Shown here: positions 4,457 through 47,773 of the stretch, in pieces | How positions within the stretch are numbered: the first letter of the stretch is position 1 | Layout of the letters: each line of letters starts with the position of its first letter | NCBI GenBank assembly: GCA_034406715.1 | Contig: CP137875.1 | Coordinates: 62,001-126,000, forward strand | From: Rhodotorula mucilaginosa | Taxonomy: Eukaryota; Basidiomycota; Microbotryomycetes; Sporidiobolales; Sporidiobolaceae | Direction of reading: 5' to 3' | Length of the DNA stretch: 64,000 nt | Program-made: the position numbers and the translations under genes | The notes under the pieces: model-generated | The model's input: the letters and a program-made list of their open reading frames with translations, nothing else | Database searches by the model: none | What the model was told of the DNA's origin: nothing

Positions 4457-5665
4457 TCACAAGCTGCAATTGGTGACACAGCTTGCTGTGTGTGACTTAC
4501 AGGTAGAGCTCCGCCGCCTGTGCGGGAGAAGGTCCCCGTCTCGGTGCAAGGGTGTTCCTGCACACCTTTGATCATCTTGCTCCAGCCATTTCTGTAACAA
4601 TGATGGCCAGAACCAAAGCTCAGAGGGGTCCTTCTCCAGTCTGCAGTCACAGTTCAGACCTGTATACTTGCCGTTAGCTGGGGATCCCAATAGCCCAAGT
4701 GCTTGCTGGCGGCTCTAACAGCCCTCTTAATGAAACGTAATTCGGAAACGTCCTGTCAGCAAACGTGGGCCATCAGCCTTGCGAAGCAGTCTCCCCTTTA
4801 CCACAACTTACAGGCAATTGAACATCTGGTCTGTTCAACTTATTCAAGGGCTCTTTGAGCTGCATAAGGAGGTACTCGCGATCCTGCCAGTACCATGCGT
4901 GATACTTGCTGCGGTCCACAGCCTCCAGGAGCTGCAGGAGATTCTCACACACTTCATTCCTGTGCGCAAATTCAGCAAGCAGCTTTATTCCTTGAGTCAC
5001 TTGCTCCCGCAGCTGCGTCCAGTGAATTGACTCACTAGTCAGCTCTTCCTAACTCTTGTTTACTCACCAAGACTTGGAATTAGAAAGGTGCAACTAACAA
5101 GCTCAAGTGTGTTTGCCTGACCCTGTAAGTCGGGCAAAAGTTCAGCTCCCTGACTGGCACTACCTCATCCTGCACAAGATGTCACACAGCTTACAGGTTC
5201 AGCAGCCTCGCTAGGGTTGGAGTAAACGGCAATGCTCCAATCAAAAACTGCCCTGAGGACTCGATCATACAGCTTCTGGTACTGTCAAGCGGAACTGTAG
5301 TGTCAGTAAGGAGAGAAAGAAAGAAAGAAAGAATTGAAAGACAACAAGTCCTTGGAAATGTTACTCACCAGTGTGTCTTCGTTGGTGTATTCGTCCAACG
5401 TATTGTCCTCCATCAGGCACTCTAACTCAACATGCACACACGAGATCATCGCCTCGCTCCAATCCTGGTAGTAATCTCCATTCAACCTGTTGATCATCTT
5501 GCGACCATGGTGAAAGCGCTTCGCAAATCGGTATGTCAACTTCCGAAACTCGTTCAGCAGCTGTCGCCGGGCCAGTTGATCTTGCAAGGCCTTCCATGCC
5601 GCGTTTGTAGCCTCAGGGTCGGATCTGTCCCGGAAAACCCGGGCGGCGGCAGATCGGAGCGGCAT
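4457..5665 (-). CDS. Repeated-family gene, copy on minus strand (unknown function)
   Basis: This is a divergent member of the multi-exon family that is tandemly repeated at 14.6-28.2 kb. The exons I can place are 5665-5369, 5281-5195, 5122-5099 (a 24-nt micro-exon, GQANTLEL), 5012-4812, 4752-4672 and 4591-4457, all phase 0. Exon 1 ends after an acidic tail. Exon 2 (YQKLYDRVLRAV...) aligns with the PFWxGSE exon of the other copies, exon 5 has WYWQDREYL in place of EWCxxDR, and exon 6 has IKRAVRAASKHLGY. The 18-nt exon 3 of other copies was not found; its absence keeps frame. The intron after exon 6 starts with GC (gcaagt). The C-terminus has drifted from the RQxxxY ending. A CGG-N5-CCG site lies 154 bp upstream. 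No catalytic motif or known domain is visible; the gene may be functional, but this is unproven. Confidence 0.6.
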
Positions 5666-5818
5666 TGCAAAGAAACCAAGAGCAAGTTTGCACTGTTGTC
5701 GGACTGAAAGGACTGAGTGTGAGCAGGACTCGAGGTTAGCTGCTGCTAGCTGCGAATAAGTGCGAAAAGAAAGGAAGAAAGAGAGGGCGAGGGAGCGTTT
5801 GGAGAAGGAAGCGCTGAC

Positions 5819-5829
5819 CGGACAAGCCG
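5819..5829 (-). promoter_or_regulatory. CGG-N5-CCG site upstream of minus-strand family gene
   Basis: Reads CGGACAAGCCG on the plus strand, i.e. CGGCTTGTCCG towards the gene starting at 5665. The same 11-mer precedes the tandem copies and several dispersed copies at a similar distance (about 90-250 bp). The inverted CGG/CCG pair is the kind of half-site arrangement recognised by fungal Zn2Cys6 factors; binding itself is inference. Confidence 0.5.
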
Positions 5830-5914
5830 CGGAGGTGCGTGCGCATGGCTCTGAGCTCGACACCGAATCTGCGTGGCAGGCACGTTTCAACAGACTATAA
5901 ATGCCTTGAGGCAG

Positions 5915-5990
5915 CGCTATACTGCCCATCAAGACTTCCGACCTGTCTAGGATGTCCTGAAGAAAATGAGCAAATGGACAAGAATGCCCC
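5915..5990 (+). repeat. Degenerate relic of the end of the TIR element seen at 30419-31613
   Basis: About 75 bp can be aligned with the left inverted end of the transposon near 30455-30535: both have an actgccc block, then gacctgtctag, an AAGAAAAT block and agaatgccccga in the same order and spacing. The copy is eroded and I see no second end, so it is a fragment. Confidence 0.5.
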
Positions 5991-6325
5991 GAGGCTTGCC
6001 GAGCTTATTCAGTGCGTCCGTGAATGCGCCACATCACGCTATCATGTTTTGACTGCCGCTCTGTAGCAAGCATTCTGCAAGATATATGTCTTCCTTGAGC
6101 AGAAACTGGGCATCTCCCTTGCAGCAAGAGTTGAACAGAAGCAAAGGAATCCGATGTCTTCAGAAACAGTAACCAAACTTTGTACTTCTGAAGATGGAAG
6201 TGAGCTGCAAGCGGCATACCAGAGAGCCTAGCTCTACAGGAGGGGATCAAGTCAAAAGTCGACGTGCGGCGGCAACGGCTCAGAGTGACACACGAAATTG
6301 ATCTTTGTGACAGGCTTGGATCGGT

Positions 6326-7075
6326 TCAAACAAGACGTCGAGGACCACCTGTGTATCTTTGTTGATAGACACGCTGCTGCCCGAGGGAGAGTGCCACTGG
6401 TGCACCATGCCCAGGAGCGTGGTGTGCGGCTGGCAAAGGATGTTTCTTTGCCCATTCCTGCAAGTCAAAGAGTAACAGACTGTCAGCTGTTGGATCTGCA
6501 TATACCTTGCAGAAAGCAGAGAACATGGAGTCACACTGCTGACTGCAATGCATGAGCAGCAGACTCACCCTCAGCGCAGTCGAGTTGGACTCGGGAATAC
6601 CAAAACGCTCATACGCGTGTTCGATCGTCCTCCTCAAGGGCAAAGTGAAAGTGGCTTTCAGGACATCCTCCTGCAGATGAGTAGTTGAGTCAATGGCCCC
6701 TCTCTTGAGTAGGACCAGGCACCAGAGGGCAACACTGCAACTCACACAGACGGTCTCGATTGCGTGAGCTGTCTTGGCCTGGTCGATTGCCTCCAGGACA
6801 GCCTCGAGCGCCTCAAGGACTTCCCGCCGATCTTTCCAGTACCAGTTGTGATATTCAGTCCTCTGCAGGGCCTCAAGGTATTCCCTGAAGGCGGCAAGGC
6901 TTCCAGAGCTCTGTGTGGTGAATTTGTCCTGCTTCTCTGTCAACAGCCGCAATCCCGTGCTGATCTGTTCCCGCAGCTGTACGCAGTGCAGTCATGCAAC
7001 ATTGTCAGCTCTGCCAACAAGGAACAGATTTTGAAGTGTGTGAGGACCAACCAGTTTGTTCGAGTCCTCCTTTCC
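6326..7075 (-). pseudogene. Repeated-family gene, 5'-truncated copy
   Basis: Exons 4-7 of the repeated family remain: 7075-7052 (24-nt micro-exon, GKEDSNKL), 6976-6746 (231 nt), 6670-6569 (102 nt) and 6457-6326, all phase 0 with good splice signals. Exon 5 shows YHNWYWKDRREVLEALEAVLEAI, shortened here to the key WYWKDR core; exon 6 ends HAYERFGI; exon 7 carries the C-terminal block LGQQRVYQQRY. Exons 1-3 are not recognisable in the 340 bp before the divergent E2 gene, and no CGG-N5-CCG site is present. The frame is also open through the introns from 6952 to 6326, so a read-through product is possible. Probably a gene remnant next to the E2 promoter. Confidence 0.55.
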
Positions 7076-12866: not shown

Positions 12867-14098
12867 CTAAGAAGAGGGCGCCGGAGGAGGGTTCAGGTCA
12901 TAGTCAAACACGATGTTGTCGATCAACCGCGTCCGGCCGAGCATGACTGCGCCGCTCAGGAGAGCCCCTCGCCCGGGCTCGACGACGTCGTCGCGGTCGA
13001 GGTCGGACAACTCGTCCGGGTCGTTCATGGCAATGTAGAGAAGTTTGACCTCGACGCCTCGGCCGCCTTGAGCCGCTTTCCGCTCCACCTCGTGAACGTG
13101 CTCTTCTGCGATCCGGAGCACGTCGCCCACTCGGACCTGCCCCTTCTCGCGACCATCACCTCGCTGTCTCTTCCACTCCTTCTCCGCCGCCTCCAACGCG
13201 TCCACCAAGACGGTGGCATACTCGCGCTCGTTCTCGGCGAGGTAGGCGTTCCTCGAACTGAGCGCGAGGTGCGAGCGTTGGTCGCGATAGGTGGGGAGGA
13301 TGACGAGGTTGTGCGCGAGCGGGAAGGGGACGTGCAAGTCGAGGAGCATGCGGCGGAGCAGGAGGGCTTGTTGAATGTCTTTTTGGCCGAAGTAGGCTCG
13401 TGTCGGCTGTGTGTGTGCGGTCGCTTGCGTCAGCGTAGAGCGTACGGTCATCCTCGGACAAAGACAGGACTCACCTGAACGAGGTTGAAGAGTTTGATGA
13501 CGACGGTCGCGACGCCCCGGAAGAAGCCCGGTCGACTCTTCCCCTCCATGACCTCCTGCAACCCTTTCACTTCGAGGAACGTCCCCCTCTGCTTGCTCAC
13601 GTCGGTCGTGATCCCGCTCGGGTACAGGGCCTCGACGGGTGGGAGGAACAAGGCCGAAATTTTGCGAGACGGGTGCGTCGGACTAGAGGCGGAGGCGAGG
13701 GCGGCGATGTCGGCTTCGAGGGTGCGAGGGTACGTGGCGAGGTCTTCGTGCGGGGCAAACTGGGCCGGGTTGACAAAAATTGAGACGATCGTGTGGTCGC
13801 ATTCCGATAACGAAGCTTGCACTGCAGGGTGCAGGAGGTCAGCGAAAGTTGTGCCAAGGGGAAGGAGGACGTCGCCCTCCGAGGCTGCGGCCAACTGACG
13901 GCCGCACGGAACGGACCGCAGGCAGAAACAGGAGGGCGTCAGAAAGTGCTCACCGAGGCTCAGGTGTCCCTGGTGCAAGGCTCCCATCGTCGGCACGAAC
14001 CCGACCGATTCTCGTCGTTCCATCAACTCGGCTCGCCATCTCCGCAGCGCAGCGACCGAAGTCAGGATCGGGAACGGCGCAGGTGGGAGCGAGTCCAT
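12867..14098 (-). CDS. PAN6: Pantoate-beta-alanine ligase (pantothenate synthetase)
   Basis: Exons 14098-13954, 13821-13475 and 13406-12867 give 343 aa. It makes pantothenate (vitamin B5) from pantoate, beta-alanine and ATP, the last step before CoA synthesis proper. Signatures in order: VGFVPTMGALHQGHLSL (the HIGH-like nucleotide-binding turn, residues about 33-49), SIFVNPAQFAPHEDL with the pantoate-binding asparagine and glutamine, YPRTLEAD, TRAYFGQKDIQQ and LALSSRNAYL with the KMSKS-like serine-rich loop. Intron 1 splits the HLSLG motif region. The right 260 bp (exon 1 plus the 3' part of intron 1 in genomic order) is the left edge of the tandem array, so six extra copies of exon 1 follow downstream. 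Only this locus has exons 2 and 3. Confidence 0.95.
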
Positions 14099-14592
14099 CG
14101 TGCAAGGCCGCTTTGCTCGTTCACAGGCGACTATGCGAGAGAGACAGCAACTCGGTGAAAAGTGGAGCGATGAAACGAGAAAATTCTCCCCAACTTCGGC
14201 TCGGCGGATCCGACTTGCCGGTCTCTCTCTCTCATATACTCTACACCTGAAGATTGTATGCTGACGGCTGGCTTAGCTCTACGTCCACTGCCGAGTTGGT
14301 CGCCTTGTCCGCCGTCGCTACCTTGACTGGCTCAACGTCGCTCATCGATGCCCGAGCGCTCGGCGCTCACGGCTACCGTTTTAAAGTGCTTGTCGCGCAC
14401 GAGCTCGACGCGATAAGGCGGGCGAAAACCTCGCACGCGAGCCTTGCCCACGCTGCGGCCCCTGCGAGCTTGGTTCTCGTACCTCCGCGGCTTGTCCGAC
14501 TGAAGTGCTTTGTCTTCGCCAAACCTCGTTTCTTCCCTCTTCTCCTTCTCTTACACTCAGGCGAAACTCTCCTGCTCTCACTTTAACTGGCT
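14099..14592. promoter_or_regulatory. Divergent promoter shared by PAN6 and the first tandem family gene; CGG-N5-CCG site at 14488-14498
   Basis: This 494-bp spacer separates PAN6 (-) from the first tandem family gene (+). It contains CGGCTTGTCCG at 14488-14498, 95 bp before the family ATG, set in a block (gcgggcgaaaacctcgcacg ... tcgtacctccg) also present upstream of the copy at 32105. It is repeated in each array unit with the site at 16950, 19412, 21874, 24336 and 26798. Confidence 0.55.
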
Positions 14593-15886
14593 ATGCTGAG
14601 TTCCGTCTTTCGTCGATCCGGGACCAGTGGGTCTGGAGGGCAACGCCCCGAGAAGCAACGCTCGCTTGATAATGAACTGGCAAAAATAAAGGGCCTTTCC
14701 AAAGATGCGGAGGGTATCCTCAGGCGATACATCAACGGGCAACCCCGCGCAGAATGGAAATTCTGGTTCGAGCAAGTTGTTTGTCGCGTTTTGCGGACCG
14801 TGAGAACAGACTCTTACATGATGCGGTACCCGCACGCGCCAGACCTGGCGCGTTTTCCACCATTATCATCCACCCACCCACCGGCCCTTGCTGATTGCTT
14901 CTCATACAGCTCCGCGCACTCAAGTTTCGAGTGGCAGCGGCTGTGGAACAACAACAGCCACGCAGTACGCCCTTCTGGAGTGGTTCAGAGGTATGCAAAA
15001 TGTTTGCTGGATCTGCAACTCTCGAGACACTCCTGGCTGACCTGCTACGATCACCCTGTGGACAGGTGGCCGAGAATGAACAGGTGCGGTTCAGCGGCGA
15101 TATCTTACAAGGGTTTCGGCTAACCTGCGGCATTCGCTTCGGAGGAACAGCAACACGCCCTGATCACTGTGCGCTTTGTGTTTCCAAGGCTATGGCATTT
15201 CTCATTTTGCCCTGTCTGATTGTTGTTGCATTACAGGCAGCCCAGGAGTCCCGAGCTCAGGTACCTGACTTCTTTTTCCAGGTAAATCTCGATGAAGGGA
15301 CACTTGTGTATTAATGCCCTCATCACTCTTTGGCATTTACAGTTCTGGCACGCATTGAACTGTCTCGGTGGCACAGAGGGAAGCTATGTCGGCATATTTC
15401 AGCAATATGTGGAACCGCTGCTTGTGCTGGAACTGGAGTGGTCTGCCGGAGACCGGAGGCACTGCACAGCCGAGCTTAACAGGTTGTTACAGGCTCTGTC
15501 TGGCGCTGGGCCTCAGGCCATCGATGCTGTGTTTGTGAGTGTCAGGTTCAAGCACGGACTTGACCAACACTGACGTTGTTTGTCCAAATCGCAGATAGGC
15601 GCAATGGCATCTGACTCTCCTCTTGTGAAAGCTATTTACAAGGCCAATCACCGTCTTGGCCTGGTGCTCCGTCGCACTACTGTGCATGGCATATCGGTGA
15701 GCTCTCCCCCTTCAGACTTGCCACAGAATTGGCACATCACGAGTCCCAGTTTATTCAGATGCTGACACCTTGATGGCACCTTTTCAGATCCCAGCCTCTT
15801 TCTGGCAACCTGCACAATCGACCGCAAATGCCCTTGGTCCACACCTTACAAGTCGCCAACAGCGCATCTATGGGAGGTTTGAGTGA
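14593..15886 (+). CDS. Repeated-family gene, tandem copy 1 (unknown function)
   Basis: Seven exons, all phase 0: 14593-14799, 14910-14990, 15066-15083 (18 nt), 15237-15260 (24 nt), 15343-15534, 15595-15696 (102 nt) and 15788-15886, giving 240 aa. Exon 1 ends with the QPRAEWKFWF block and CRVLRT; exon 2 ends STPFWSGSE; exon 3 is VAENEQ; exon 4 AAQESRAQ; exon 5 has LELEWSAGDRRHCTAEL; exon 6 has AIYKANHRLGLVLRRTT; exon 7 ends TSRQQRIYGRFE. Conserved Trp, Asp-Arg and Leu spacings suggest a mostly helical soluble protein. There is no signal peptide, membrane segment, zinc-binding pattern or catalytic motif that I recognise. The same exon plan in diverged copies elsewhere in the window supports this splice model. 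Phase-0 introns throughout allow exon skipping without frame loss. Function unknown. Confidence 0.7.
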
Positions 15887-16289
15887 TAGGCATCCATCTC
15901 CTTTCTCATCTGAGTTCTTCTTCTTCTCTCTTCTTTGTTCCGACGGCGCCCTTCTTTTTGCCAGACCTATGGTTTCTCGTGTATCAAAGGACCGGTTCTC
16001 AGTATCGATTTAACCCTTCCTCTGGAGGTCCCATGCTCGCACCCCTCTTTTCCCTCCTTTTTTTCTTTCCCTTTTTTAAGAGCCTCCGTCCCTTGATTTG
16101 ACATTATATACTTGACTCATAGTCTTTGGTGACTGGCGCTCCGAGGGCTACAAGGATATGATCGAGAGTGCCTGTCTTGAAACTTTGCTCCTCAACAATT
16201 TCAATTAATTCACATGGTGCACCTTTCACCTTGGCAACATGCGGTGACGCGCGTCACAGTCAAAAAATAGTAAGCGGTGCTTCTGGGAA

Positions 16290-16560
16290 TCAGCGAAAGT
16301 TGTGCCAAGGGGTCGCAGAAGGAGGAGAAGATTGGCCCTCGGGAAGTTGCGGCCATTTGACAGCCGCTCGAGACGGGTCGCCGGAGACAAAAGTCGGGCA
16401 TCAGAAGGTGCTCACCGAGGCTCAGGTGTCCCTGGTGCAAGGCTCCCATCGTCGGCACGAACCCGACCAACTCTCGTCGTTCCATCAACTCGGCTCGCCA
16501 TCTCCGCAGCGCAGCGACCGAAGTCAGGATCGGGAACGGCGCAGGTGGGAGTGAGGCCAT
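16290..16560 (-). pseudogene. PAN6 exon-1 fragment, array copy 1
   Basis: Repeats the PAN6 start codon, exon 1 up to the HQGHLSLG turn and its gtgagc donor, then diverged intron-1 sequence; exons 2-3 are absent. Compared with the true gene, Asp2 is Ala and one Ser is Leu (RRE-S/L-VGFVPTMGA). Unspliced reading gives a 116-aa frame running into flank sequence. It points towards the 3' end of the preceding family gene. Confidence 0.85.
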
Positions 16561-17054
16561 CGTGCAATGCCGCTTTGCTCGTTCAAGGGCGGCTATGCGA
16601 GAGAGACAGCAACTCGGTGAAAAGTGGAGCGATGAAACGTGAAAATTCTTCCCAACTTCGGCTCGGCGGATCCGACTTGCCGGTCTCTCTCTCTCACATA
16701 CTCTACACCTGAAGATTGCATGCTGATGGTTGGCTTAGCTCTACGTCCACTGCCGAGCTGGTCGGTTGTCCGCCGTCGCTACCTTGACTGGCTCAACTTT
16801 GCTCATCGATACCCCGAGCGCTCGACGCTCATGGCTACCGGCTGAAAGTGCTTGTCGCGCACGAGCTCGACGCGATAAGGCGGGCGAAAACCTCGCACGC
16901 GAGCCTTGCCCACGCTGCGGCCCCTGCGAGCTTGGTTCTCGTACCTCCGCGGCTTGTCCGACTGAAGTGCTTTGTCTTCGCCAAACCTCGTTTCTTCCCT
17001 CTTCTCCTTCTCTTACACTCAGGCGAAACTCTCCTGCTCTCACTTTAACTGGCT

Positions 17055-18348
17055 ATGCTGAGTTCCGTCTTTCGTCGATCCGGGACCAGTGGGTCTGGAG
17101 GGCAACGCCCCGAGAAGCAACGCTCGCTTGATAATGAACTGGCAAAAATAAAGGGCCTTTCCAAAGATGCGGAGGGTATCCTCAGGCGATACATCAACGG
17201 GCAACCCCGCGCAGAATGGAAATTCTGGTTCGAGCAAGTTGTTTGTCGCGTTTTGCGGACCGTGAGAACAGACTCTTACATGATGCGGTACCCGCACGCG
17301 CCAGACCTGGCGCGTTTTCCACCATTATCATCCACCCACCCACCGGCCCTTGCTGATTGCTTCTCATACAGCTCCGCGCACTCAAGTTTCGAGTGGCAGC
17401 GGCTGTGGAACAACAACAGCCACGCAGTACGCCCTTCTGGAGTGGTTCAGAGGTATGCAAAATGTTTGCTGGATCTGCAACTCTCGAGACACTCCTGGCT
17501 GACCTGCTACGATCACCCTGTGGACAGGTGGCCGAGAATGAACAGGTGCGGTTCAGCGGCGATATCTTACAAGGGTTTCGGCTAACCTGCGGCATTCGCT
17601 TCGGAGGAACAGCAACACGCCCTGATCACTGTGCGCTTTGTGTTTCCAAGGCTATGGCATTTCTCATTTTGCCCTGTCTGATTGTTGTTGCATTACAGGC
17701 AGCCCAGGAGTCCCGAGCTCAGGTACCTGACTTCTTTTTCCAGGTAAATCTCGATGAAGGGACACTTGTGTATTAATGCCCTCATCACTCTTTGGCATTT
17801 ACAGTTCTGGCACGCATTGAACTGTCTCGGTGGCACAGAGGGAAGCTATGTCGGCATATTTCAGCAATATGTGGAACCGCTGCTTGTGCTGGAACTGGAG
17901 TGGTCTGCCGGAGACCGGAGGCACTGCACAGCCGAGCTTAACAGGTTGTTACAGGCTCTGTCTGGCGCTGGGCCTCAGGCCATCGATGCTGTGTTTGTGA
18001 GTGTCAGGTTCAAGCACGGACTTGACCAACACTGACGTTGTTTGTCCAAATCGCAGATAGGCGCAATGGCATCTGACTCTCCTCTTGTGAAAGCTATTTA
18101 CAAGGCCAATCACCGTCTTGGCCTGGTGCTCCGTTGCACTACTGTGCATGGCATATCGGTGAGCTCTCCCCCTTCAGACTTGCCACAGAATTGGCACATC
18201 ACGAGTCCCAGTTTATTCAGATGCTGACACCTTGATGGCACCTTTTCAGATCCCAGCCTCTTTCTGGCAACCTGCACAATCGACCGCAAATGCCCTTGGT
18301 CCACACCTTACAAGTCGCCAACAGCGCATCTATGGGAGGTTTGAGTGA
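17055..18348 (+). CDS. Repeated-family gene, tandem copy 2
   Basis: Same exon plan as copy 1 shifted by 2462 bp. The one visible protein difference is Cys for Arg in the LGLVLR(R/C)TT segment of exon 6. Splice sites, micro-exons and the upstream CGG-N5-CCG site (16950-16960) are intact. Directly downstream lies a PAN6 exon-1 fragment facing this gene. Confidence 0.7.
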
Positions 18349-18751
18349 TAGGCATCCATCTCCTTTCTCATCTGAGTTCTTCTTCTTCTCTCTTCTTTGT
18401 TCCGACGGCGCCCTTCTTTTTGCCAGACCTATGGTTTCTCGTGTATCAAAGGACCGGTTCTCAGTATCGATTTAACCCTTCCTCTGGAGGTCCCATGCTC
18501 GCACCCCTCTTTTCCCTCCTTTTTTTCTTTCCCTTTTTTAAGAGCCTCCGTCCCTTGATTTGACATTATATACTTGACTCATAGTCTTTGGTGACTGGCG
18601 CTCCGAGGGCTACAAGGATATGATCGAGAGTGCCTGTCTTGAAACTTTGCTCCTCAACAATTTCAATTAATTCACATGGTGCACCTTTCACCTTGGCAAC
18701 ATGCGGTGACGCGCGTCACAGTCAAAAAATAGTAAGCGGTGCTTCTGGGAA

Positions 18752-31916: not shown

Positions 31917-32104
31917 GTTCGGGGTGCTTTTTCTGCGCGAGACCTCACTGCTTTCCTCTTCTTCTTGTTCACTCCCGGGTTACGTTGCCGACTGCCGCAT
32001 TCTGTGCTGCACGCCTCCTGCGCCGGCTGACTCGGCCGGATGACTCGGCCGGGGTACCTTTTTTCGCGCCCCTGCGCCAGGGTTTCCTCACTGACCGTTC
32101 CAAT

Positions 32105-33366: not shown

Positions 33367-33369
33367 TTG

Positions 33370-33591: not shown

Positions 33592-33821
33592 CTGCTCTCC
33601 CTGTGCTCGCTGGCATGATTTACTGCCTACGGGAAATCCGCTGTCCATGGATGATGGTTTGCCTGAGTATCATGCTCCACTCGGCGCACCGGCGGCAAGC
33701 TGCCGGCTACAGGTGACATGTCCGTCCCCTCGCAACTCTGTCAAATCCTGACGCAGCAAACACTTGCGCTCGCTTGTGCCCCAGTTTGAACCGGCTAAAC
33801 TTGGTCCGGCGGCGCGCTCCG

Positions 33822-33832
33822 CGGCTTGTCCA
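33822..33832 (+). promoter_or_regulatory. Imperfect CGG-N5-CCG site (CGGCTTGTCCA)
   Basis: Lies 164 bp before the family ATG at 33996, within gctccgcggcttgtcc. The last base of the CCG half is A. Position and context match the other family promoters. Confidence 0.45.
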
Positions 33833-33995: not shown

Positions 33996-35040
33996 ATGCC
34001 GCCCTCATGGCGAGCATTCCTCAATCGAGGGGAGAGGCCGCTGTCGCTTGCAGACGAGCTGACAAGACTCAAGGCTCGCTTCAAGCACAGCGGACCTGCA
34101 GTGGAGGCCTGCATAAAACAGCAGCCTCGCATAGAATGGAAACCCTGGTTTGAGGAAATTGTCTGTCGCACCCTGCGGGAAATGAACAGCAACAGGAACC
34201 AAAGGGAGGGCAGTGCAATGGAACTGGCCAGTCCACTTCTCTGCCAATAAAGCTGCTTGAGTCTGATGCATTCAAAGACAGATCAATCACCTCAGACGTG
34301 ACCTTGCGGTGGCGGTTGAAGAGCGGGGTGAATCGCCATTTTGGCAGGGAACAGAGGTGATCAAGCGTATCAGTTCACTGCCAAAACTGCCTCAGCTGAA
34401 TACTGCATTTACCATTCAGGCTGTGCCAGTATCCGAGCAACATGTGCGACACATTGTCTATTTCAGAAGAATGCGGAAACTAACATTGATCTGGAACAAA
34501 AGCTTGATGAGCAGGTTCAATGCCTTGCCAAAGACTCGGTGGTCTCCATGCTCATCAAGGTTCATGTCACGCATGCAGACCGCTGGTCTGAAGAAGATTG
34601 CACACAGTACACCAATGAGCTTAAAGGTATCTCAGACACGGCCAACAACGAGAATGCAAGGCGAATCAACGCAAGTCAAAAAGTGAGCTGCGAGGTACAG
34701 AAACTTCTGCTGACCCTGATTTCCGTTCACACAGGGGGACGAGTATCTCAAGCTTGACCTACGGGCAAGAATTGCCGAAGACCGCCTTGGGATGAAACCG
34801 GGGACATGGTCAACTTGGCAGGTGAGTGGGTGACAGTGCTCTTCTACAGGGGGGCGAGTAAATGTTCAATGCTAAGGAGTGCTCTGTCTCTTCCTTGGCC
34901 TGAAGTACTCCTGGCTTGAGGAGCGGGGCTATCTGAAACCAAAGCGCCAACTCCGGGCTCTTGGCCACAGCGAATTGGTGGCGCTTTCGCCTCGACAGCG
35001 TTACCGATATGGCCAGTCGCACACACATGCGGCCTTCTAG
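33996..35040 (+). CDS. Repeated-family gene, dispersed copy
   Basis: Recognisable exons: exon 1 from 33996 (KQQPRIEWKPWFEEIVCR), exon 2 34282-34356 (75 nt, ESPFWQGTE), exon 3 34420-34443 (AVPVSEQH), exon 5 34467-34682 (DRWSEEDCTQYTNEL), exon 6 34735-34821 (AEDRLGMK) and exon 7 34906-35040 ending ALSPRQRYRYGQSHTHAAF. Exon 4 is not separate: only 23 nt part exons 3 and 5. The donor of intron 1 is unclear: no phase-0 GT lies before the stop at the end of the exon-1 frame, so either an odd donor is used or the gene is damaged. The C-terminal ending is nearly the same as that of the copy at 35902, its duplication partner. Confidence 0.5.
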
Positions 35041-35059
35041 GTGTACACACTTGCTTCAT

Positions 35060-35440
35060 CTGCTGTAGGCAATATTGTGGCTAGATGTGCATACGGTATG
35101 AATGGACACCACTGGTTCGAACAACTGTAGCGGAAGTAGCGTTAGAGCCCTCTTACAATCAGAATGCAACGCAAAAGTTGTCGAGATGTGCATGGCTGCT
35201 TTTCTTCTGAATTGCCTCCCTCTCGACTCACCTGCTCTCGCACAAACGGCCAAGAGGGGACCGGAGAGCATCTACGCAACTTGGATAATCTGCTACAAAG
35301 CCCGGACATTGCAAAAACGCCGCGCCAGCCCGGCGCCGCCGCATGACCGGTTCGTGCACGCGTCATCGACGCCCTTGTCTCGCCCCATGGACCATGCTGT
35401 ACGCTTGCAGGACCGTACAGGGCTTGGAAACAATGTAAAG
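35060..35440 (+). repeat. Copy of the upstream region and first exon of the SHPRH-like gene
   Basis: Aligns with 37020-37491: both contain tgtatacggta/tgcatacggta followed by tggacaccac, then ttcctgcacgcgtcatcg and the ATG of a short frame, MDHAVRLQDRTGLGNNV here against MEDALRLQDATGLGNNV in the real locus. Most differences in that frame are synonymous. It ends before any helicase exon, so it is a promoter-plus-exon-1 fragment. Confidence 0.6.
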
Positions 35441-35651
35441 ATTACCTGCTGTCTGTATTTTCCGATTGATGTATTTGTGGCGCGCGAAAAAGGAAAGAAA
35501 AAAAGAAAAAAAAGAAAAAAGGACTTCTGGTCAAAGCTGGCCGAGCCGGACGGCGGATGGACAGGTCACTGACAAAAGCTTTGCAGGACCGAAGCTCGCT
35601 TATCTAGCCAGATTCGTTATCGCAGCTGCGCGGCTTGTCCAAGCTCGTCCC

Positions 35652-35697
35652 CGGCTTGTCCGCGGGGTTGGATGCCATCGAGTCCGCGGCTTGTCCG
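35652..35697 (+). promoter_or_regulatory. Two CGG-N5-CCG sites, with a third imperfect one at 35631
   Basis: CGGCTTGTCCG occurs at 35652-35662 and 35687-35697, and CGGCTTGTCCA at 35631-35641. They lie 205-271 bp before the family ATG at 35902. This is the only copy with a cluster. Confidence 0.5.
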
Positions 35698-35901
35698 GGT
35701 GGAAATCGCGACCTTTTGGAACAACCGGACATTCGTCCGACTACTCTTGCTCTCCTGTTCACTCTTCCTTGCTCCTCTTGAGGTAGACCAATCCCTGTGC
35801 ATCTATAACCCAACAACTTTGCAGTTCAGTCACTGACTCTTGATTTGCACCACTGGTCTCACCACTCTGCAGAAAGCGCAAACCTCGCCCCAGCGTTTGC
35901 C

Positions 35902-36975
35902 ATGCCCGCAGAGACTACCCCCTACCTCCAGTTGCAGGACTCGCTCTCCAAATTCAAAAAGCTCTTTATTTTTGCCGGACACGTCTTGGTGAACGCCTTG
36001 AAAAAGAAACCATGCAGTGAATGGACCACCAAATTCATCAACATTGTCTGTGGTGTGCTCAAAAATATGAGAAAGCGGAAGGCAACGGTAAAAACGCGTG
36101 GAGATCAGACTGCATTGAGGATGAGACGAGCGGTGTGGTGCGTGCGCACTCGGTCCAATTCTTCTGAGCTAACGGCCGCTGCTAACTCCCACAACATCAC
36201 CACTAGATGTCATTGTTCCATACTGGCCTTGCACAGGCTTTCAAGCATGATATGTGGGCCTCACCTTTTCAGCAGGAAACCCAAGTAAGGAATGCATCCT
36301 TTGCCAGTCTTTGCAGCCATGGTATTGGCTGACCTTTCCCACCACCATAAAGTCAGCAAAAGACTCCTGGGAAGCGGTTTGCTCGTGCCCCGTCACAAAT
36401 TGCGCCATTGTGACCCAAGCTGACATAGACGTGTATTCAACAGCTCGAACAACAATTCAAGCGCCATGTTGGCAGCTCTGAGGATGCCTGGAGCCACATA
36501 AAGCAGCACCGGACCTATGCAGCTCGCTGGTCCTCATTTGATCGCAGGGAGTACACTCGAAGGTTGCAAACTTTCTTAGACCTGGCTGACCGCCAAGGCG
36601 GGAGGGACATTAGTGTAAGTCAACGGGAGAAGGTACAGTCAGCACATGCCTCTACTGACGCTCATCAATGGTACTGTAGAGGGAGGAGTACTTTGACCTT
36701 GATACTGTAGTGCTTCGGGCTGAGAACGCCTGGGCATGAGGTACGGAAACTGGAGGCCCCATGATGTGAGTGACTTTTTACTTGAACCAAATGTGTGCCA
36801 TATCTGCTCTGCTGTGATGCTGAGTCACCCAATGTTCCATGGCCCTTTACAGAACTCTGAGTATCATGCGGAGCTTGACAGGGCGTCCCACGCTCTTGGC
36901 CGTCGCCAGCTAGTGGCGCTTTCGCCCCGTCAGATTCGCAGGTACGCCCAGTCGCACACCCGCGCGGCCTTCTAG
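35902..36975 (+). pseudogene. Repeated-family gene, dispersed copy with frameshift in exon 6
   Basis: Parts: exon 1 35902-36087 (KKPCSEWTTKFINIVCG), a likely exon 2 at 36237-36284 (WASPFQQETQ), exon 5 36444-36614 (YAARWSSFDRREYTRRL), exon 6 from 36680 and exon 7 36853-36975 ending ALSPRQIRRYAQSHTRAAF. In exon 6 the frame REEYFDLDTVVLRAENA runs into TGA at 36737, while LGMRYGNWRPHD continues in another frame: a short indel near 36731. Exons 3 and 4 were not found. The promoter sites and the C-terminus are well preserved, so the damage is probably recent. It is the duplication partner of the gene at 33996. Confidence 0.55.
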
Positions 36976-37437
36976 GCAGACAGACCTACTTCATCTGTTG
37001 TAGGCGGTCTCGGGCTTTTGCATAAACTTGTGTTTCAAGCGCAGCAATTTGGACCAAGCTGAGCAATTGGCAGCCAGAGAGGTGAAAACGACGTCGGAAG
37101 TACCCCCTAAAGATTGGCTTGATGTGTATACGGTACGGATGGACACCACCAGCTCAATCAACCCTGTGGGGCGGACACTAAAGGCTCTTGTGAAAGAGAG
37201 ACATGGCAACGCAGCGCAGAGGAGTCGAGATGTCAACTTTGCGCCGGCTGCTTTTCCTCGCTTTCGCCTCGACTCACCTGCTCCCGTACAAGCGGCCGCG
37301 AGAGAATTGGAGACGTCTACACAGCTCGCAAAGTCCGCTACCGAGCCCGGACGCTGCGTGAACGCCGCGCTCGACGACGCCTGTAGCCGCCGCTCGACCG
37401 GTTCCTGCACGCGTCATCGCCGCCTCCATCTCTCGCC

Positions 37438-40400
37438 ATGGAGGACGCTCTACGTCTGCAGGACGCTACAGGGCTCGGAAACAATGTCACGGTGAGCCAC
37501 TCCGCCTTGCAAACGCTCTCGACAAGCCGGTCCGCCGTGCGGTCGGGTTGCTCCACTTTTGCCCGAGGCAACGCGCTCTCTGCGCTGCCAGGGTTCGGGC
37601 GAGCATGACCCAGGAGGCAAACAAGGCATTGCGACTCGGCCTACCTGCCAAACGCGCGCCCTCCGAGCCCTGGCCGCCTGCCAGCTCCTCCGCCCTCATC
37701 ATCGCCTTGTTCCGCGTGAAAACAGCACAGACTGACCTCTAAGTCGCCCCCCTGCAGCACATCTTCCGTGAAGCGATCACAGCCGCCGTCAAGGATGCGC
37801 TCATGTCGGACGACGCCGGCGACGACCGCCTCGATTCGGACGACTCGGTCGAGGTGATCCGAGTCGGCAAGAAACGCGGCGCTGCTTCGCCTGCACCCGA
37901 CGCGCCGGCCCTCAAGAAACTCGCCAACGGCAAGGGCGAGAGCTTGCCAGTTCTCCAACTCGACCTCGGCTTTGCGCCGCCCAAAGATCTCGACGAAACC
38001 TTGCGCAATTTGGTCAAAAAGCACGGGAAGGCTCTCCTGGAAGGAGAGAACGCCTCGCTCCCTCTCTGCGACATCGTGTTCCAGCACGCGCGCGACAACG
38101 CCAAGTCCCCTCACCGCTTGTACATCCGCCGAGCCGACACGAACGCCGCCCTCGTCGAGCTCGACCCCGTCGATCCGACGTGCGCCGTCGCGCAGAGTTG
38201 GGTCTCGTGGATCGCGCCGCCGCCCTTGACCAAGAGCGGGAAACCGTACAAGAAGGCGCGGAACGCGGCCAAGGCGCCGCAGCGCCAGCCGGTCGCGGTC
38301 GTTCCGACCGGGGCGGGCGGGTTGGTCGACGCGTTGGCGGTCCTCGGTGATCTGAACGGGCAGGGCGTCTCGGTCGTCCCGCGGTTCTCTCTCGAGGTCG
38401 CTGGCGCTTTTGGATCGATGGCAGAGCCGCAGCTCCGCATCCGCCTTCAGATCGAGGTCTCGATCGATCCGTTCGAGTTCTACGAAGCCGCCTACCATCG
38501 CTCTCGCCGCATCCTGATCGACTACCTCCTCCCCTCCACCGATCCGCTCAACACCGGCACGGACGTTCCCGCCGAAGCCAGCGTCGACTACTTTTACGCG
38601 TGCTTGCGTCGCGCTCCTCGGACTGAGAAGGGCCTGCCGATCTTGTCGGATGCCTCCGCTGCGCAAACACCCGCCGCAGCATTGCCCGCCGAATCGGACG
38701 AAGAACGCGAAGCGCGTCTCCGCCGGGCCGCCAAGGGCAAGCAACGTGCGGTCGATCCCGATCCCGATCCCAATTCCGAGGCCGGTCCAGTCGGCGAGGA
38801 GGGCGGTGCCGCCATCGAGAAGGAGGACGAGATGTTGTACCCTCAAGGGCTCACGGTCGGATTGATGCCGTTCCAGGCTAGGACGATCAGGTGGATGCTT
38901 GCGCGCGAGGGGAAGCGGGTCAATCCGCGCGGGGGCGTTGAGGAAGAGGCGACGGGCGCCAATGGCCGTGGTGAGGAGGTCGAGGAGATGCGGAATGGCG
39001 ACGGGATTGGCGCGGCCGACGAACCCGAAGACGACGACGACGACGACGACGACCTCTATGCCGCGCCCCGTCCGTCAAACAGCAAGAAGGGCAAGGGCAA
39101 GGCGCGCGTCGAGCCCGAGGAGGAGCAGGAGACTAACGGTTCGCCGCCCGAACTGGAAGATCTCGACGTCGCCACCTTGCGGCGGATGAAGCGCGGCCCG
39201 CTCTGGGAACAGGTCGAGCTTCCCAACCTCGACTCGTGCACTCGCGAACCCGCCGGCTTCAAGCAACTGTGGTTCAATCGCACGCTCCTCTCGTTTAGCG
39301 TCACGGATCCGGTTGACACGGTTGGACCGAGTGGGGCGGCGACGCCGGTTGTCAAGCCTGAGCCTTCGGATGGGGACGAGATCGCCGAAGCTGCGGAGGA
39401 GCATGCGTCGAGGAAGGTTGTTGGTGGGAGGGAAGGGCACGGGTTGCTCGCCGAAGAGGTCGGGTTGGGCAAGACGGTCGAGGCTCTCAGCTTGATCTTG
39501 ACGCGTAAGGCTTCTACGTCGCCTTGATTCGGCAACCGTCTGCTGACAGAACCGCCCTTCATCCCGCCGCAGACCGTGACGACAACCGTCGCAAGTTGCC
39601 GGCGTACTACAACCCCGTCGTCGACTCGGAAGTTCAGCCGTGCGGCGCGACGCTCATCATCGCTCCGACCGCCATCATCGGCCAATGGGAGACCGAGATC
39701 GCCCGCCTCGCTCCTCAGTTGCGCGTCCTGCGCTACTCGGGCGTCCGCTTCCTCAACAAGCAGCACGAGAAGCACGACAAGAGATGGATGGCCAAGCATT
39801 TCGACATTGTCTTGACGACTTTTGACGTTCTGCGGAAGGAGGTGGCGTTTGCTCGTGCGCCAACTCAGCGCGGGCTGCGGAACAAGCGCGAGGTGCGGTA
39901 CCGCCGCTCGCTCCTCGTCGAGCTCGACTTCCTCCGCGTCCTGATGGACGAAGCGCAGATGTGAGTTCCCCTTCGGATGCGCATCTTCCTCTTCATTTCC
40001 TCTGACCGACCTGGATCGTGCGTGGACAGGGTCGGAGACGCCTACGGCCCGACGAGCGAAACGGCCAGTCTCATCTCGCGCCGCTTCAGCTGGGCGGTCA
40101 CGTCGACCCCGCTGCGCGACAAGATCGCCGACATCAAGCCGCTCTTGACCTTCCTGCGCGTCGAGCCGATCGCTTCCGGCAAGGCCAACATCCAGAGGCT
40201 CCTTGACGAGACGGCGAGCTTCAAGAAGCGTGAGCCGCTGCTGTGGTACCTCTGCTTCGATCGATCCAGGTACTGACCGTGCGAACCCCTACCCCGCAGT
40301 CTGGAACGAGATCGGCGAACGCACGCTCAAGTCCCAAGTCCAGCACGAGCTCTTCCTGCCGCAGCAGATCCGCTACATCGTCCCGATCGAGCTCACCGCC

Positions 40401-44398: not shown

Positions 44399-44640
44399 GC
44401 CGGAGCGTGGTGGTGACTGTTCGTGTGGCTTGTTCTTGTCTCTTGCTTTCTCGTACCTTTGTCCTGTGCTTGTTGCCATTGATACATAGCAGTTTCCCCT
44501 TCGACCGCACGTTCCTTGTCGATTTCACGTGTCAACGGAAAACTCATGACGTCGCGAGTTGCTCGGCGACGAGCGTCCGTCCGTCTCTCGCTCTTCTTTC
44601 TTTCCTTTACGCTCTTGACCAGTCATTGAGAAAGTGCGAG

Positions 44641-46354
44641 ATGGCAGGCAGTAAGAGCTACGCTTCTGCGACGTCGGCGTACGCTCCCCTCGGAGTCGAG
44701 CAACCGCACCCCTCGCTCGCCTTGCTCGACTCGACGCAGCCCGCGAACCGCGACGCTCTGCTGCGCAGGCACCCACACGCTCTTGACGGGATGGACGGTG
44801 AAGTCGACCACCAGCAGAACGAGGCCTGCATCAAGTCCGGGTCCGCGAGGAAGACCAACGGGTTCGAGCGCGAACACGAGTCCGACTCCAAGCACACGCA
44901 GGGCAAGAAGGACAGCGAGGACAGGAGACCTGGCTCTGGGTTCGAGAGTACCATCAAGGGTCATCCGGCCATGGAAGGCAGGGACCCGCCCGAGAAGATT
45001 GGCGGACAACTCGTCGAACCTTGTCAGTCGCTCGACGTGCCACTTTCCCTCTGTCAGCAGAGAGTGTCCACACGAGGCTAGACTTGCTGACTTGGTGCCT
45101 GGCAACGCGGTCCGTGCGACAGGGGTCCCTCGCGCCAACATTGCCGCGACGCCGGACAAGCCGGACGGGACTCAGGAAGGCGGATGGGCCAAGGCGCACA
45201 GCAGGCAGAGCGTTCTGCAGCAGCACTGCGCGTGGTGGGACCCGGTGCGTCACGCTCCCCTACCAGCGGTGTACGCTGGCGGCTGACCGCTGCTCTCCTC
45301 CCACAGGACGGCGACGGCATCATCTGGCCGTGGGACGTTTTCGTGCGTCTTCATTCCTTGACATTGCGTCCTGACTCTGCTTTGTCTGGGAGCCAGGTGC
45401 AATTATTGACAAGGACCCCAAGCCGCGCAGTTTGGGTTCCACCAGCTCGGCTACGCCTTGCCGTGGTGCATCCTCGCCGTCTGGTCCGTCCTTTCCTTCC
45501 TGTCCTTTCCTTTCTCTTTGTGCCGCGAACTCGCGCCCCCGAAGAAACTGACTCCGGCTTCACTGATCGCCCACAGCATCATTTCGCCTTCCTTCTCGTG
45601 GTTCACCTCCGAGTCGTGGATCCCGCACCCGCTCTTCCCGGTCAACATCAAGAACATCCACCGCGCCAAGCACGGTTCCGACACGGCCACGTACGACACC
45701 GAGGGCCGCTTTGTCCCCGCGCGGTTCGAGGCCATCTTTTCCAAGTAGGTTGGCTCGGTCCTTCGAGTGACTCTCCCTGGGCCTGCAAAATCTTTGCGGC
45801 CCTGAGACAGTCTCTCGTCGCTGAGCCTTCGGTTCCATCGTACAGGTTCGACCACAACAACAAGGGCGGCGTCACGTTCTTCGAGGCTCTCCAGGTACGT
45901 TCTATTGCATTCGGTTAAACTTCCGCACCACTCCTGACGCCGCTTTATCGAGCGCACATAGATGATCCACCGCAACCGCAACATTCTCGACTTCCCCGGC
46001 TGGGTCGGCGAATTCTTCGAATGGTTCGCGACCTACCTCCTCATCTGGCCCGCCGACGGCATCCTCCGCAAAGAAGACATCCGCGTCGTCTACGACGGTT
46101 CCGTCTTCCCCATCATCGCCGCCCGCGAACGCCAACGCCGCCTCAACGCCTGGAACGCGGGCTGGCTCGTTTGGCTCTTGTCGCTCTTGCCCCTTAGTGG
46201 GTGGTTCAAGGAGAACCGCGCCCAGACGGACGTTGAATACAAGAAGGACAAGGACTTGGAAGGGAAGGGCGCTTACTGGAAGGAGCGCGGGCTGGGCAAA
46301 GTCTGGAGCGAGGAGGCGAAGAAGGCGGAACAGACTCGCGCGTCGAGCTTCTAA
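44641..46354 (+). CDS. Caleosin (lipid-droplet calcium-binding haem peroxygenase)
   Basis: Seven exons (44641-45022, 45123-45244, 45307-45342, 45431-45483, 45577-45744, 45846-45894, 45962-46354) give 400 aa. The core begins [20 protein letters not shown]: the HCA histidine is a predicted haem ligand and D-x-D-G-D-G is the EF-hand loop (near residue 167). It continues with a short hydrophobic hairpin [18 protein letters not shown], the proline-knot-like [10 protein letters not shown] and the strongly conserved [20 protein letters not shown]. Caleosins sit on lipid droplets or ER and oxidise unsaturated fatty acids, a sensible activity in an oleaginous yeast. The N-terminal 130 residues are hydrophilic and longer than usual, as is the basic C-terminus. 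Intron 4 is 93 nt, free of stops and in frame (see findings). Confidence 0.93.
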
Positions 46355-46573
46355 GGTCGAGCAGAACTTTGGAGTCTCGAGTGACTTGTACATAGTACGC
46401 TTGAGACGAAAAACAGGAAATTGTAGCTGCTGGTAGATAACCTTCTCCCTTTTCTTTCTTGTTCGCAGTACATAGAAACCGTGCTCTCACAATTTTGTTA
46501 AGACATTCAGCGGTTGCAGAGACAGATGAAAGCGTGCAGATCAGCTTGCGCTGAGCGGACGCCGGAAACAGGT

Positions 46574-47773
46574 CTAGTTTGGAGACAGATGATGTCGAGT
46601 CGTTTCCGTGTACCGTTGGCAATGCTCCCGATTAACGTCCCACAGGGAAGTATTGAGCCAAGCAATGGTTTGAGATTGTGAACTGAAGTTTAATCTGTGT
46701 GCACCGGGACAGGACAGATGTGAGCACGAACCCAGAGAGTCAGGGCCTTTTTTTTCTTTTCTCGCATCAGCTGACTCAGCAGATCTTACCTTGTCTATGC
46801 TGGGATCCTTTTGGCGCATTCCATGCAGTTCATTGTGATACCTCCTGATGGCAAGCTTGAGGGAGACCACCAAGCGATCCTGCAGGCCAATGTCTCCTCA
46901 GCCTGGAACTCCTTGCGGCGCCGGAACCACTCGAGGCTGCAATTGGGGCAAGGAGCTTACCAGAGTGTCCTGGCCTCCCAGTTCCTCTACCCACGGTACA
47001 TACTGCTCCAAGCACTCTATCACAGGATTGAGTGCCTCACTGTGCAGAACCAGTACCGGGATCGGTCCCAGCTGGCGAGCAAGCCAAAAACAGACTCCGT
47101 CCCAGATTGCTTGGGCATTAGACATGTCCTGGCTGAAACCGCGGCGGTATTCCCAGAAATAATTCACCCCCAGTTTGTCAAGCGCTTGCTGGAGGGTATA
47201 AGATGTGTTGAGCTTGGGGCACGCAAGTAGTTCCTTGTCAAGGTGGTGCAGATTCTGAGTGATCTGTAAAGCATCCTGCACACTAATTGTGTCATAGCAG
47301 TTCTGCAGTGCAATGGGCTGTAATTTAGGCTCTTTAGCTCACTGCAGGCTCCCAAAAAAATTCCCGTGCGCTTTCTTACATTTTGACCAAGTGGTTTCTG
47401 CATGTGCCCGCAAAATTGCAAGTAGTGCTTCCACTGCTCACAGCTGAGTTTCATGGGAGACTGGTGTAGGTACTGGGGGCATACAGCAGTATCAGCATTG
47501 AGCCCGTAAGCAACAGTCAAGTAGCCTCCTGGTGTTGGCAGCGCTGAGCATGCAACGTACCAGTAGCTCGGGATCCTCAGCAATCTGTTCCAACCTGTGG
47601 TAGATGTCCCAGAGGGCAGCAATAGGAGTTGGACAACACGGTCCGAGGTGGTGATCAAGCCATGTGTAGAATGCAGACCAAGCACTCCGGTTGCCGATCC
47701 GAGCTTTGTACGATCCTGTCGCCCGATTCAAGGCGGCCTGCATGTGACTCCCCTCCGTGTTCACTACGGACAT
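46574..47773 (-). CDS. Repeated-family gene, most divergent copy (minus strand)
   Basis: Exons that can be placed: 47773-47561 (71 codons), 47472-47380, 47302-46961 (342 nt) and 46879-46790 (90 nt), all phase 0, then a last exon to 46574. Similarity to the family is weak in sequence but clear in plan: an N-terminal helix followed by an SAWSAFYTWL block, exon 2 of similar size, exon 6-like VVSLKLAIRRYHNELHGM, and a C-terminus AWLNTSLWDVNREHCQRY echoing LTSRQQRIYG. A perfect CGG-N5-CCG site lies 89 bp upstream. Micro-exons 3 and 4 appear fused to exon 5. The acceptor of the last intron is not resolved; the frame is also open straight through it. Assignment to the family rests on the promoter plus exon layout. 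Confidence 0.45.

Follow-up and report, generated by a model that had tools for sequence, protein, structure and literature searches.

A tandemly multiplied family of spliced genes and its shared upstream element near a chromosome end in Rhodotorula mucilaginosa

The 64,000-nucleotide stretch of Rhodotorula mucilaginosa DNA analysed here (the window) carries a family of spliced coding genes, family A, which has multiplied by local tandem duplication, for which no relatives were found, and whose copies are preceded by an element shared with other gene families. The original prediction of a multi-copy spliced family in the window largely holds and is confirmed in part: of its 13 copies of one spliced gene, spliced-profile alignment assigns 12 to family A, whereas the locus at 46574-47773 belongs to another family, D. 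The 12 consist of six intact copies in a tandem array (T1-T6), one other intact copy, and five that are degraded or doubtful (Table 1), and six more copies flank the window at C12:37.2-42.5 kb and 126.4-130 kb. The genome-wide count that had been proposed gives 18 copies, all at C12:37-130 kb, that is, in a stretch of about 95 kb near the telomere; 8 of the 18 are broken, partial or doubtful. The expected mixture of recent and old, live and dead copies was indeed found, with the intact array and the 32105 copy on one side and truncated, frameshifted and stop-bearing copies on the other.

Spliced-profile alignment was used because signature patterns miss diverged copies. The short signatures that had been said to persist do so in the array and the copies at 29-34 kb, while their strict forms alone match no other copies. 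The first profile was built from four copies (T, 32105, M2 and 33996); with it, the 6326, 29174 and 35902 copies, which are not in the profile, scored 72, 97 and 106, against 29-41 for the eight negative stretches used as the null, and both 4457 (38) and 46574 (40) fell inside this null range. A nine-copy profile raised 4457 to 284, versus 255 for the best non-member, and 4457 pairs with 6326 in the tree of copies (support 93/87). Locus M3 scored 62 with the four-copy profile and is not among the matches listed with the nine-copy profile; both profiles include some of the copies that they score. The output of tblastn with a single protein under loose settings was mostly noise, and an ab initio gene finder, whose exons were incorrect in some known genes (32105, M1), served as a guide only.

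The complete gene has seven exons in the order E1, E2 ending in PFWxGSE, a 6-aa exon, an 8-aa exon, E4 with WxxxDR, E5 with AxxRLGL and E6 with LSxRQQxxY, the introns being in phase 0 and the two microexons having 6 and 8 residues. The proposed common exon plan stands in full for the array and the 32105 copy; in the other modelled copies the 6-aa exon was not found. The array is composed of head-to-tail copies with a period of exactly 2,462 bp, in each of which the spliced gene is open with GT-AG at all six introns, and only two amino-acid differences occur across them (R201C in T2 and A114T in T4). The second intron of the 32105 copy begins with GC, the donor of intron 1 in the 33996 copy is GC instead of GT and possibly impaired (read by eye), and the C-terminal motif was not found in the 4457 copy, whose sequence was also read by eye. 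Family A proteins are 240-315 aa long, with a fixed core (WxxxDR...L, AxxRLGL and C-terminal LSxRQQxxYxQ) and a variable rest. No membrane segment was found in 21 models of families A, B and C, some of them partial (19-residue hydropathy at most 1.41). Nor was a signal peptide found in the models by the hydropathy of the first 30 residues, used in place of a dedicated predictor: the 35902 copy reaches up to 1.85 over 11 residues and the other models at most 1.02.

Table 1. Features of the window (positions in the window; exons in order of translation)
Feature	Position	Strand	Remarks
Array T1-T6, family A	14593-15886, 17055-18348, 19517-20810, 21979-23272, 24441-25734, 26903-28196	+	240 aa each
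T1 exons	14593-14799, 14910-14990, 15066-15083, 15237-15260, 15343-15534, 15595-15696, 15788-15886	+	
32105 copy, family A	32105-33366	+	intact, 256 aa
32105 copy exons	32105-32296, 32359-32433, 32505-32522, 32682-32705, 32780-33028, 33082-33183, 33256-33366	+	
33996 copy, family A	33996-35040	+	8-aa exon merged into E4
35902 copy, family A	35902-36975	+	sister of 33996; E5 frameshift, by eye
29174 relic, family A	29174-30108	+	5'-truncated, broken within E2 at array junction; stop in E5
4457 copy, family A	4457-5665	-	model from ATG through E5
4457 copy exons	5369-5665, 5195-5281, 5099-5122, 4812-5012, 4660-4752	-	
6326 copy, family A	6326-7075	-	5' end missing; E4-E6 open; terminus ...LSLGQQRVYQQRYTGGPRRLV
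46574 gene, family D (not A)	46574-47773	-	relatives on C16 and C2
Element CCGCGGCTTGTCCG of 4457 copy	5819-5832	-	exact
Element of T1	14485-14498	+	recurs at 2,462-bp intervals to 26795-26808; six copies, all exact
Element of 32105 copy	31903-31916	+	exact
Element of 33996 copy	33819-33832	+	one mismatch
Element of 35902 copy	35684-35697	+	exact; weaker copies at 35628, 35649
Family D form of element, CGGCTTGTCCGCGGA	47858-47872	-	upstream of 46574-47773
Last duplicated panC 5' end with T-type upstream DNA	28600-29174	+	90% identical to 13839-14404
Decayed duplicate of 5' end of RAD5-like gene	35078-35436	+	original 37115-37487, 69.7%
Upstream region of 32105 copy	31840-31966	+	79.5% identical to T1 upstream 14417-14547

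Between T1 and the 32105 copy, second codon positions are kept at 0.63 and third positions at 0.36, with dN about 0.6 and dS about 2, near saturation, and in the complete family A pairs compared the second positions are much more conserved than the third. As judged from these codon-position patterns, family A is under purifying selection, and diversifying evolution is therefore unsupported; the label 'fast-evolving', taken as diversifying selection, is likewise not supported. The codon-position pattern, the phase-0 exons at 34-44% identity and the intact splice sites of the array also show, at the level of sequence, that family A consists of real coding genes. That they are not genes, only decayed repeats with chance open frames, is disfavoured and scarcely credible: the many broken, partial or doubtful copies would suit it, and the codon-position pattern, the conservation of the phase-0 exons and splice sites intact in 6/6 array copies all argue against it.

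The duplication of family A was local, DNA-based and tandem. The duplicated units captured the 5' ends of panC and of a RAD5-like gene; the last panC duplicate stops where it meets the 29174 relic, the RAD5-like fragment is a remnant of the duplication that produced 33996 and 35902, and the tree of family A copies pairs neighbours together. The phrase 'inserted between housekeeping genes' is thus misleading, because the copies arise in place and the 5' ends of flanking genes are duplicated too. A mobile-element cargo or a domesticated transposon protein, which the many copies and an inverted-repeat element at 30418-31614 between them might suggest, is likewise disfavoured and very improbable. 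The introns are retained, flanking-gene 5' ends are included in the duplications, one arm of the inverted repeat, when searched for in the genome, matched only its own two arms, and transposon profiles gave sub-threshold matches only (Retrotrans_gag, E 0.13, in one of nine family A members). In the two duplications looked at for terminal repeats, flanking-gene fragments were found instead, and retroposition or transposition is disfavoured on these grounds. A gene for a STE3 pheromone receptor is found on this chromosome too, some 370 kb away from the family A cluster, which is therefore not at the STE3 locus.

The earlier statement that no family with this set of signatures is known agrees with the searches: no relative appeared above the cut-off in Pfam, in PDB sequences or in a search of 5.8 billion proteins, which scored 2,832 and 7,999 word-sharing candidates in a database that, by a control search, does contain Rhodotorula proteomes. 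This large search covered family A, and families B, C and D were checked against Pfam; no model of any of the four families exceeded a Pfam-A gathering cut-off. PDB profile matches (best E 0.087, apolipoprotein E) were taken as noise, and a metagenome match (P0001, 69 aa) was rejected as a relative, since it is the 35902 copy's own last-exon frame. Among open-licence papers nothing recognisably concerned family A or the promoter element, and the papers listed when 11-mers of the element were searched for as text bore unrelated titles.

In family A copies whose 5' end is present, a sequence like CCGCGGCTTGTCCG stands some 105-220 bp upstream of the ATG. The 11-bp core of this element, CGGCTTGTCCG, reads CGG-CTTGT-CCG, that is, two inverted CGG half-sites, and is likewise found before families B (C3), C (C8, C6, C2) and D. 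Zn2Cys6 target sites are of the type CGG-Nx-CCG, which the core resembles; the binding factor here is putative. The window has 9 exact copies of the element versus 0 in 20 dinucleotide shuffles; the genome has 153 sites with at most one mismatch versus 26 for the reversed pattern, and 213 sites of the D form versus 2. Among loci found without the element, it precedes 7/7 distinct family A loci with a 5' end (4457, the array counted once, 32105, 33996, 35902, C126 and C128) with 0-2 mismatches, and its core precedes 4/4 family D loci, one with a mismatch. An exact element occurs at 5 of 11 family C loci found in this way and is missing from the other 6, as from C3:1122497, the only B-like locus found from protein alone (E 0.04). 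Loci first noticed through the element (M1-M4, B1-B4, L057 and L059-L062) were excluded from these rates; the start of M4 was placed a few bases off in the survey. Upstream regions exceed shuffles in only two of four pairs (T1-32105 and B1-B2). A one-mismatch element also occurs at C12:56062 (minus strand) without an adjoining family gene.

The 14-mer was dropped as a family-A-specific mark because other genes, unlike these families, carry a CCGCGGCTTGTCCG-like element too (e.g., L048-L050 and L056); since it precedes dissimilar genes, its role may be that of a general promoter element. Genome-wide there are at least 167 distinct exact sites, clustered mostly on one strand: 26 neighbouring pairs lie within 5 kb versus 5.4 expected, 23 of the 26 on the same strand (two arrays excluded), the expectation assuming random placement, ignoring gene density and taking mean lengths for seven of the contigs. 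Of 134 sites, array copies counted, 46 lie within 100 kb of the end of a contig versus 22.5 expected, and within 50 kb only 16 versus 11.2. This distribution relative to contig ends, the purifying selection, the six near-identical array copies and the presence of the element before other genes would all suit an ordinary lineage-specific dosage family, in which tandem copies raise the output of a niche-useful protein without any conflict and the element acts as a strong promoter element of general use. Such a family is a serious possibility, short of being probable; against it stand the lack of a family A relative among proteins that include many Rhodotorula proteomes and the fact that several families behave alike.

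Families B, C and D have mostly phase-0 short exons and no Pfam match. In profile-profile comparison (hhalign), which covered A, B and C, A-B scored 15.8, with 25 shuffles reaching up to 17.6, and A-C 15.9, with shuffles up to 16.2; B-C, at 21.2, is slightly above most shuffles, 24 of 25 of which are at or below 16.6 and one at 133. These comparisons yielded no match that would show a shared origin of the three families. The promoter word common to these families hints at a jointly controlled gene set.

Several known systems invite comparison. PAU, COS and DUP240 are subtelomeric yeast families, which family A resembles in being clustered toward a chromosome end and tandemly duplicated; family A differs in being spliced with microexons, in having no Pfam match and in sharing its element with other families. 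Micro-exon genes of schistosomes likewise have short symmetric exons and encode secreted proteins, whereas no signal peptide was seen here by hydropathy. The wtf drivers of Schizosaccharomyces are membrane proteins, while family A, which belongs to another phylum and is likened to them by description and not by sequence comparison, has no membrane segments. The wtf drivers are described as multi-exon genes with many diverged, intact and broken copies, some of which share a transcription motif; for the poison isoform this motif lies within intron 1, and exon 2 has an in-frame ATG close to its start (PMC9562144). Family A is comparable in its exons, its diverged intact and broken copies and a motif shared in part, and differs in intron 1: a search for the element (at most two mismatches) rather than for FLEX found it upstream of exon 1 and not in intron 1. 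Four of six modelled E2 exons have no Met and the other two have one in mid-exon only. A selfish, wtf-like spore or gamete killer family is accordingly unlikely: copy-number behaviour, the mixture of intact and broken copies, their concentration on a single chromosome arm, the one shared element and STE3 on the same chromosome speak for it, and the lack of the element in intron 1, the lack of a conserved exon 2 ATG, the absence of membrane segments and dN below dS speak against it. A driver, defence or effector role for family A remains an analogy, some hallmarks of wtf genes and of secreted effectors having been sought and not found.

The explanation proposed here, which is held tentatively and is possible rather than probable, is a co-regulated gene set amplified by tandem duplication and acting as a co-induced arsenal in intracellular conflict. 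Family A proteins would be soluble and probably helical, their copies multiplying in place by tandem DNA duplication near the telomere, with copy number setting the dose of the product. The copies would be transcribed from the element that also precedes B, C, D and some other genes, on which a Zn2Cys6-type factor may bind the two inverted half-sites, and the element-bearing families may be co-expressed. The fixed core would serve to bind a shared partner and the variable parts different ligands, and the conflict might be with mobile elements, viruses or non-self; the purifying selection on family A speaks against an arms race in this conflict. More doubtful is the wider idea of an unrecognised genome-wide system in Rhodotorula, in which many mutually unrelated, locally amplified families with no known relatives, under one CGG-CTTGT-CCG switch, would supply variable soluble proteins for a shared purpose, for instance gene drive, defence against parasites or self/non-self recognition.

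Genes that lack relatives tend to be found singly, and here one promoter word flags a whole set. With the element, clusters of unrecognised families could be picked out from the sequence of other red-yeast genomes, and the function of the whole set would become approachable via one transcription factor. The finding bears on the origin and spread of new gene families, and on the question whether intracellular conflict systems like those of fission yeast also exist in basidiomycete yeasts.

Family A, the spliced multi-copy family on contig C12, is a coding family that has been amplified locally and has no known relatives. It comprises 18 copies, all at C12:37-130 kb (see the table, where copies are named by window start or by handle; M1-M4, C126 and C128 flank the window). 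The array copies T1-T6 form six tandem units with a period of exactly 2,462 bp, one gene per unit; units 2-6 show 1-3 base differences from the first over the part compared, and the six proteins two residue differences in total. Their genes have 7 exons, 240 codons and GT-AG introns, all of phase 0.

A first spliced profile, for which T, 32105, M2 and 33996 were used, scored the copies outside it at 72 (6326), 97 (29174), 106 (35902), 90 (M1), 126 (M4) and 62 (M3), while eight negative stretches scored 29-41; both 4457 (38) and 46574 (40) fell inside this null. A nine-copy profile was run over 216 kb of C12 and eight loci (574 stretch-strand combinations), where 4457 reached 284 and two loci were newly detected, C126 (286) and C128 (285), against 255 for the best non-member. 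The models of C126 and C128, the two most diverged copies, are complete, with an 8-aa microexon (AARGSQWL and EAQESLQA, respectively), and both carry the C-terminal motif, which reads SPLSxRQQHxYxQLCHG in these two. The C-terminal motif is present in 9 of 12 distinct models and absent from M2, 29174 and 4457. A start-to-stop open frame exists in 10 of the 18 copies (T1-T6, M1, 32105, C126, C128), with one GC donor apiece in M1 and 32105.

The original prediction counted at least 13 copies of one gene in the window, with 13 loci listed; 12 of these loci stand as family A, and the thirteenth belongs elsewhere. Besides its profile score in the null, 46574-47773 matches two genes on C16 (best E 1.8e-15) and a locus on C2 (E 1.6e-13), which share its first exon (AW[SN]xF..., PELL at the splice) and, across well-matched exons, its phase 0 introns. 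To judge from these matches, 46574-47773 and its relatives are a separate family, named D.

Features in the window (plain numbers) and elsewhere in the genome (contig:position or locus)
Feature	Position	Remark
Family A, within window (12)	4457, 6326, T1-T6 (14593-28196, +), 29174, 32105, 33996, 35902	
Family A, outside window (6)	M1, M2, M3, M4, C126, C128	M3 partial
Family D	46574-47773; C16:653665-656533; C2:598412-599211	
panC 5' end copy in array unit	13839-14404; 28600-29174	90%
RAD5-like 5' end copy	35078-35436; 37115-37487	69.7%
Tandem duplication, 111 bp, exact	33370-33594	right behind stop of 32105
In-frame duplication, 18 bp	32123-32158	exon 1 of 32105
Inverted arms, ~300 bp	30418-31614	77% identical; TCTAGAATGCCCC-like repeats
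86-bp piece	5910-5995	resembles 30418-31614 (self-comparison)
Second duplicated segment	48948-50809; 54829-56560	66-77% identity
STE3-type pheromone receptor gene	C12:498066-498830	
TATAAAA / GATAAAA	C12:126299 (C126) / C12:128488 (C128)	just 3' of element
Family C loci with exact element	C8:77467, C8:206561, C8:290460, C6:1370582, C2:1490894	
Element sites, other or unclear content	L048-L051, L053, L054, L056, L058 (two), L065-L067	
Three copies, 4,692-bp spacing	C4:515-530 kb	both element forms in each, on opposite strands
Same-strand runs, 3-4 exact D-form elements	C10:102-120, C14:50-54, C3:1470-1481 kb	gene-sized spacing
Perfect inverted repeat, arms >=248 bp	L051 (C2:188100-189700), 894-1141 and 1354-1601	downstream of element-bearing gene, to end of piece

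C12 is 828 kb long and opens with CCCTAA repeats, so that the window starts 62 kb from the telomere. The neighbours by Pfam are a MADS-box protein, PanC and an SNF2/RING protein, taken for a RAD5-like gene, with a KDM8-like repeat below cut-off; a ubiquitin-conjugating enzyme gene is also present. The pantoate-beta-alanine ligase shares 97% identity with its counterpart in Rhodotorula sp. JG-1b and 85% with the one in R. dairenensis, so the organism is probably a near relative of JG-1b within Rhodotorula. The second duplicated segment is separate from family A, and the frames tested in it had no Pfam match; a genome search with one arm of the inverted-repeat element matched only its own two arms.

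In self-comparison, the array unit includes a copy of the panC 5' end, and the 29174 relic starts right at the array junction; 33996 and 35902 derive from a tandem duplication that includes the RAD5-like 5' end. The tree pairs neighbouring copies (33996-35902 94/93, 4457-6326 93/87, 32105-29174 81/85, and C126-C128 100/100 as the sole starred pair), with 5 of 9 inner branches unresolved. By these results family A is copied through DNA duplication in place rather than by retroposition, and transposition is disfavoured.

Codon alignments of four pairs gave identities at codon positions 1/2/3 of.57/.63/.36 (T1-32105),.56/.65/.40 (C126-C128),.50/.59/.39 (M2-33996) and.58/.56/.39 (a family B pair, from contig C3). 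With dN of 0.57-0.68 against dS of 1.8-2.3, near saturation, the family A and B genes compared are, by these estimates, coding and evolve on average under purifying selection, which speaks against the fast evolution claimed before, in the sense of diversifying selection; this could act at single sites. The array excepted, the copies of family A are old.

Family A had no match above the Pfam cut-off, no PDB sequence match of note and no match in a sequence search of the protein database; a profile search there returned a single match, the window's own last-exon frame, from metagenomes. This agrees with the original prediction, which recognised no family with this set of signatures. A control query from the same window retrieved 2,530 proteins with E-values of 1e-10 or below, and the matches listed include many Rhodotorula, Rhodosporidiobolus and Sporobolomyces species. 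Because the database search depends on shared 5-residue words and annotated genes, diverged or mis-annotated orthologues may escape it. For families B, C and D the search covered Pfam, with no match above cut-off, and PDB sequences for one C protein.

Upstream of the start, T1 and 32105 are 79.5% identical over 132 bp, against 36% at third codon positions. Upstream identity lay above all shuffles in two of four pairs (T1-32105, B1-B2) and within the shuffle range in C126-C128 and M2-33996; some introns also exceed shuffles, T1-32105 intron 2 foremost. The shared upstream region contains a putative promoter element, CCGCGGCTTGTCCG (the A/B/C form), found in the window 9 times exactly and 11 times at <=1 mismatch (20 dinucleotide shuffles averaged 0 and 0.05). 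Across 21 genes compared it lies 91-218 bp upstream of the start in sense direction, the direction being by design for genes picked via the element. Genome-wide (20.35 Mb in 19 contigs) this form occurs at 153 sites at <=1 mismatch, its reversed pattern at 26; for the D form, CGGCTTGTCCGCGGA, the two counts are 213 and 2. Both forms share the core CGGCTTGTCCG, and upstream of 46574 the exact match is limited to this 11-bp core. Distinct exact sites number at least 167 (68 of the A/B/C form, 100 listed of the D form). Leaving out the T array and one C4 array, 26 neighbouring pairs lie <5 kb apart (5.4 expected), 23 of them on the same strand.

Among loci found independently of the element, all 7 distinct family A loci with a 5' end have it with 0-2 mismatches, and 4 of 4 family D loci have the core, one with a mismatch. 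Family C (contigs C8, C6, C2) has the exact element at no fewer than 5 of 11 loci found by protein match (weakest E about 0.01); at these five it precedes the matched exon by 0.6-1.1 kb and shares its strand. The sole further family B match (C3:1122497, E 0.04) has no element among the sites listed. Other loci were picked via the exact element: 23 A/B/C-form sites outside C12 (L048-L067) and one D-form site (L070, from the D-form runs); the C8 sites were picked as a cluster, and family shares here are not random. Four of these sites fall in family B (L052; three in L055) and four in family C (L060-L062, and L057 at 9e-11 with the L060-L062 profile). L059 is borderline to the family C profile (0.0067; best of 300 shuffled sequences 0.055), and L063 does not match it. 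Nothing exceeded the Pfam cut-off in L063, L064, L056 (one C4 copy) or L070, which contains an unrecognised gene.

A putative promoter word is common, at the sequence level, to family A and at least three further unrecognised families, and the genes bearing it may plausibly answer to one factor. Soluble products with a constant tail in variable surroundings, together with repeated amplification, would fit a role in intracellular recognition, but an ordinary dosage family is no less likely.
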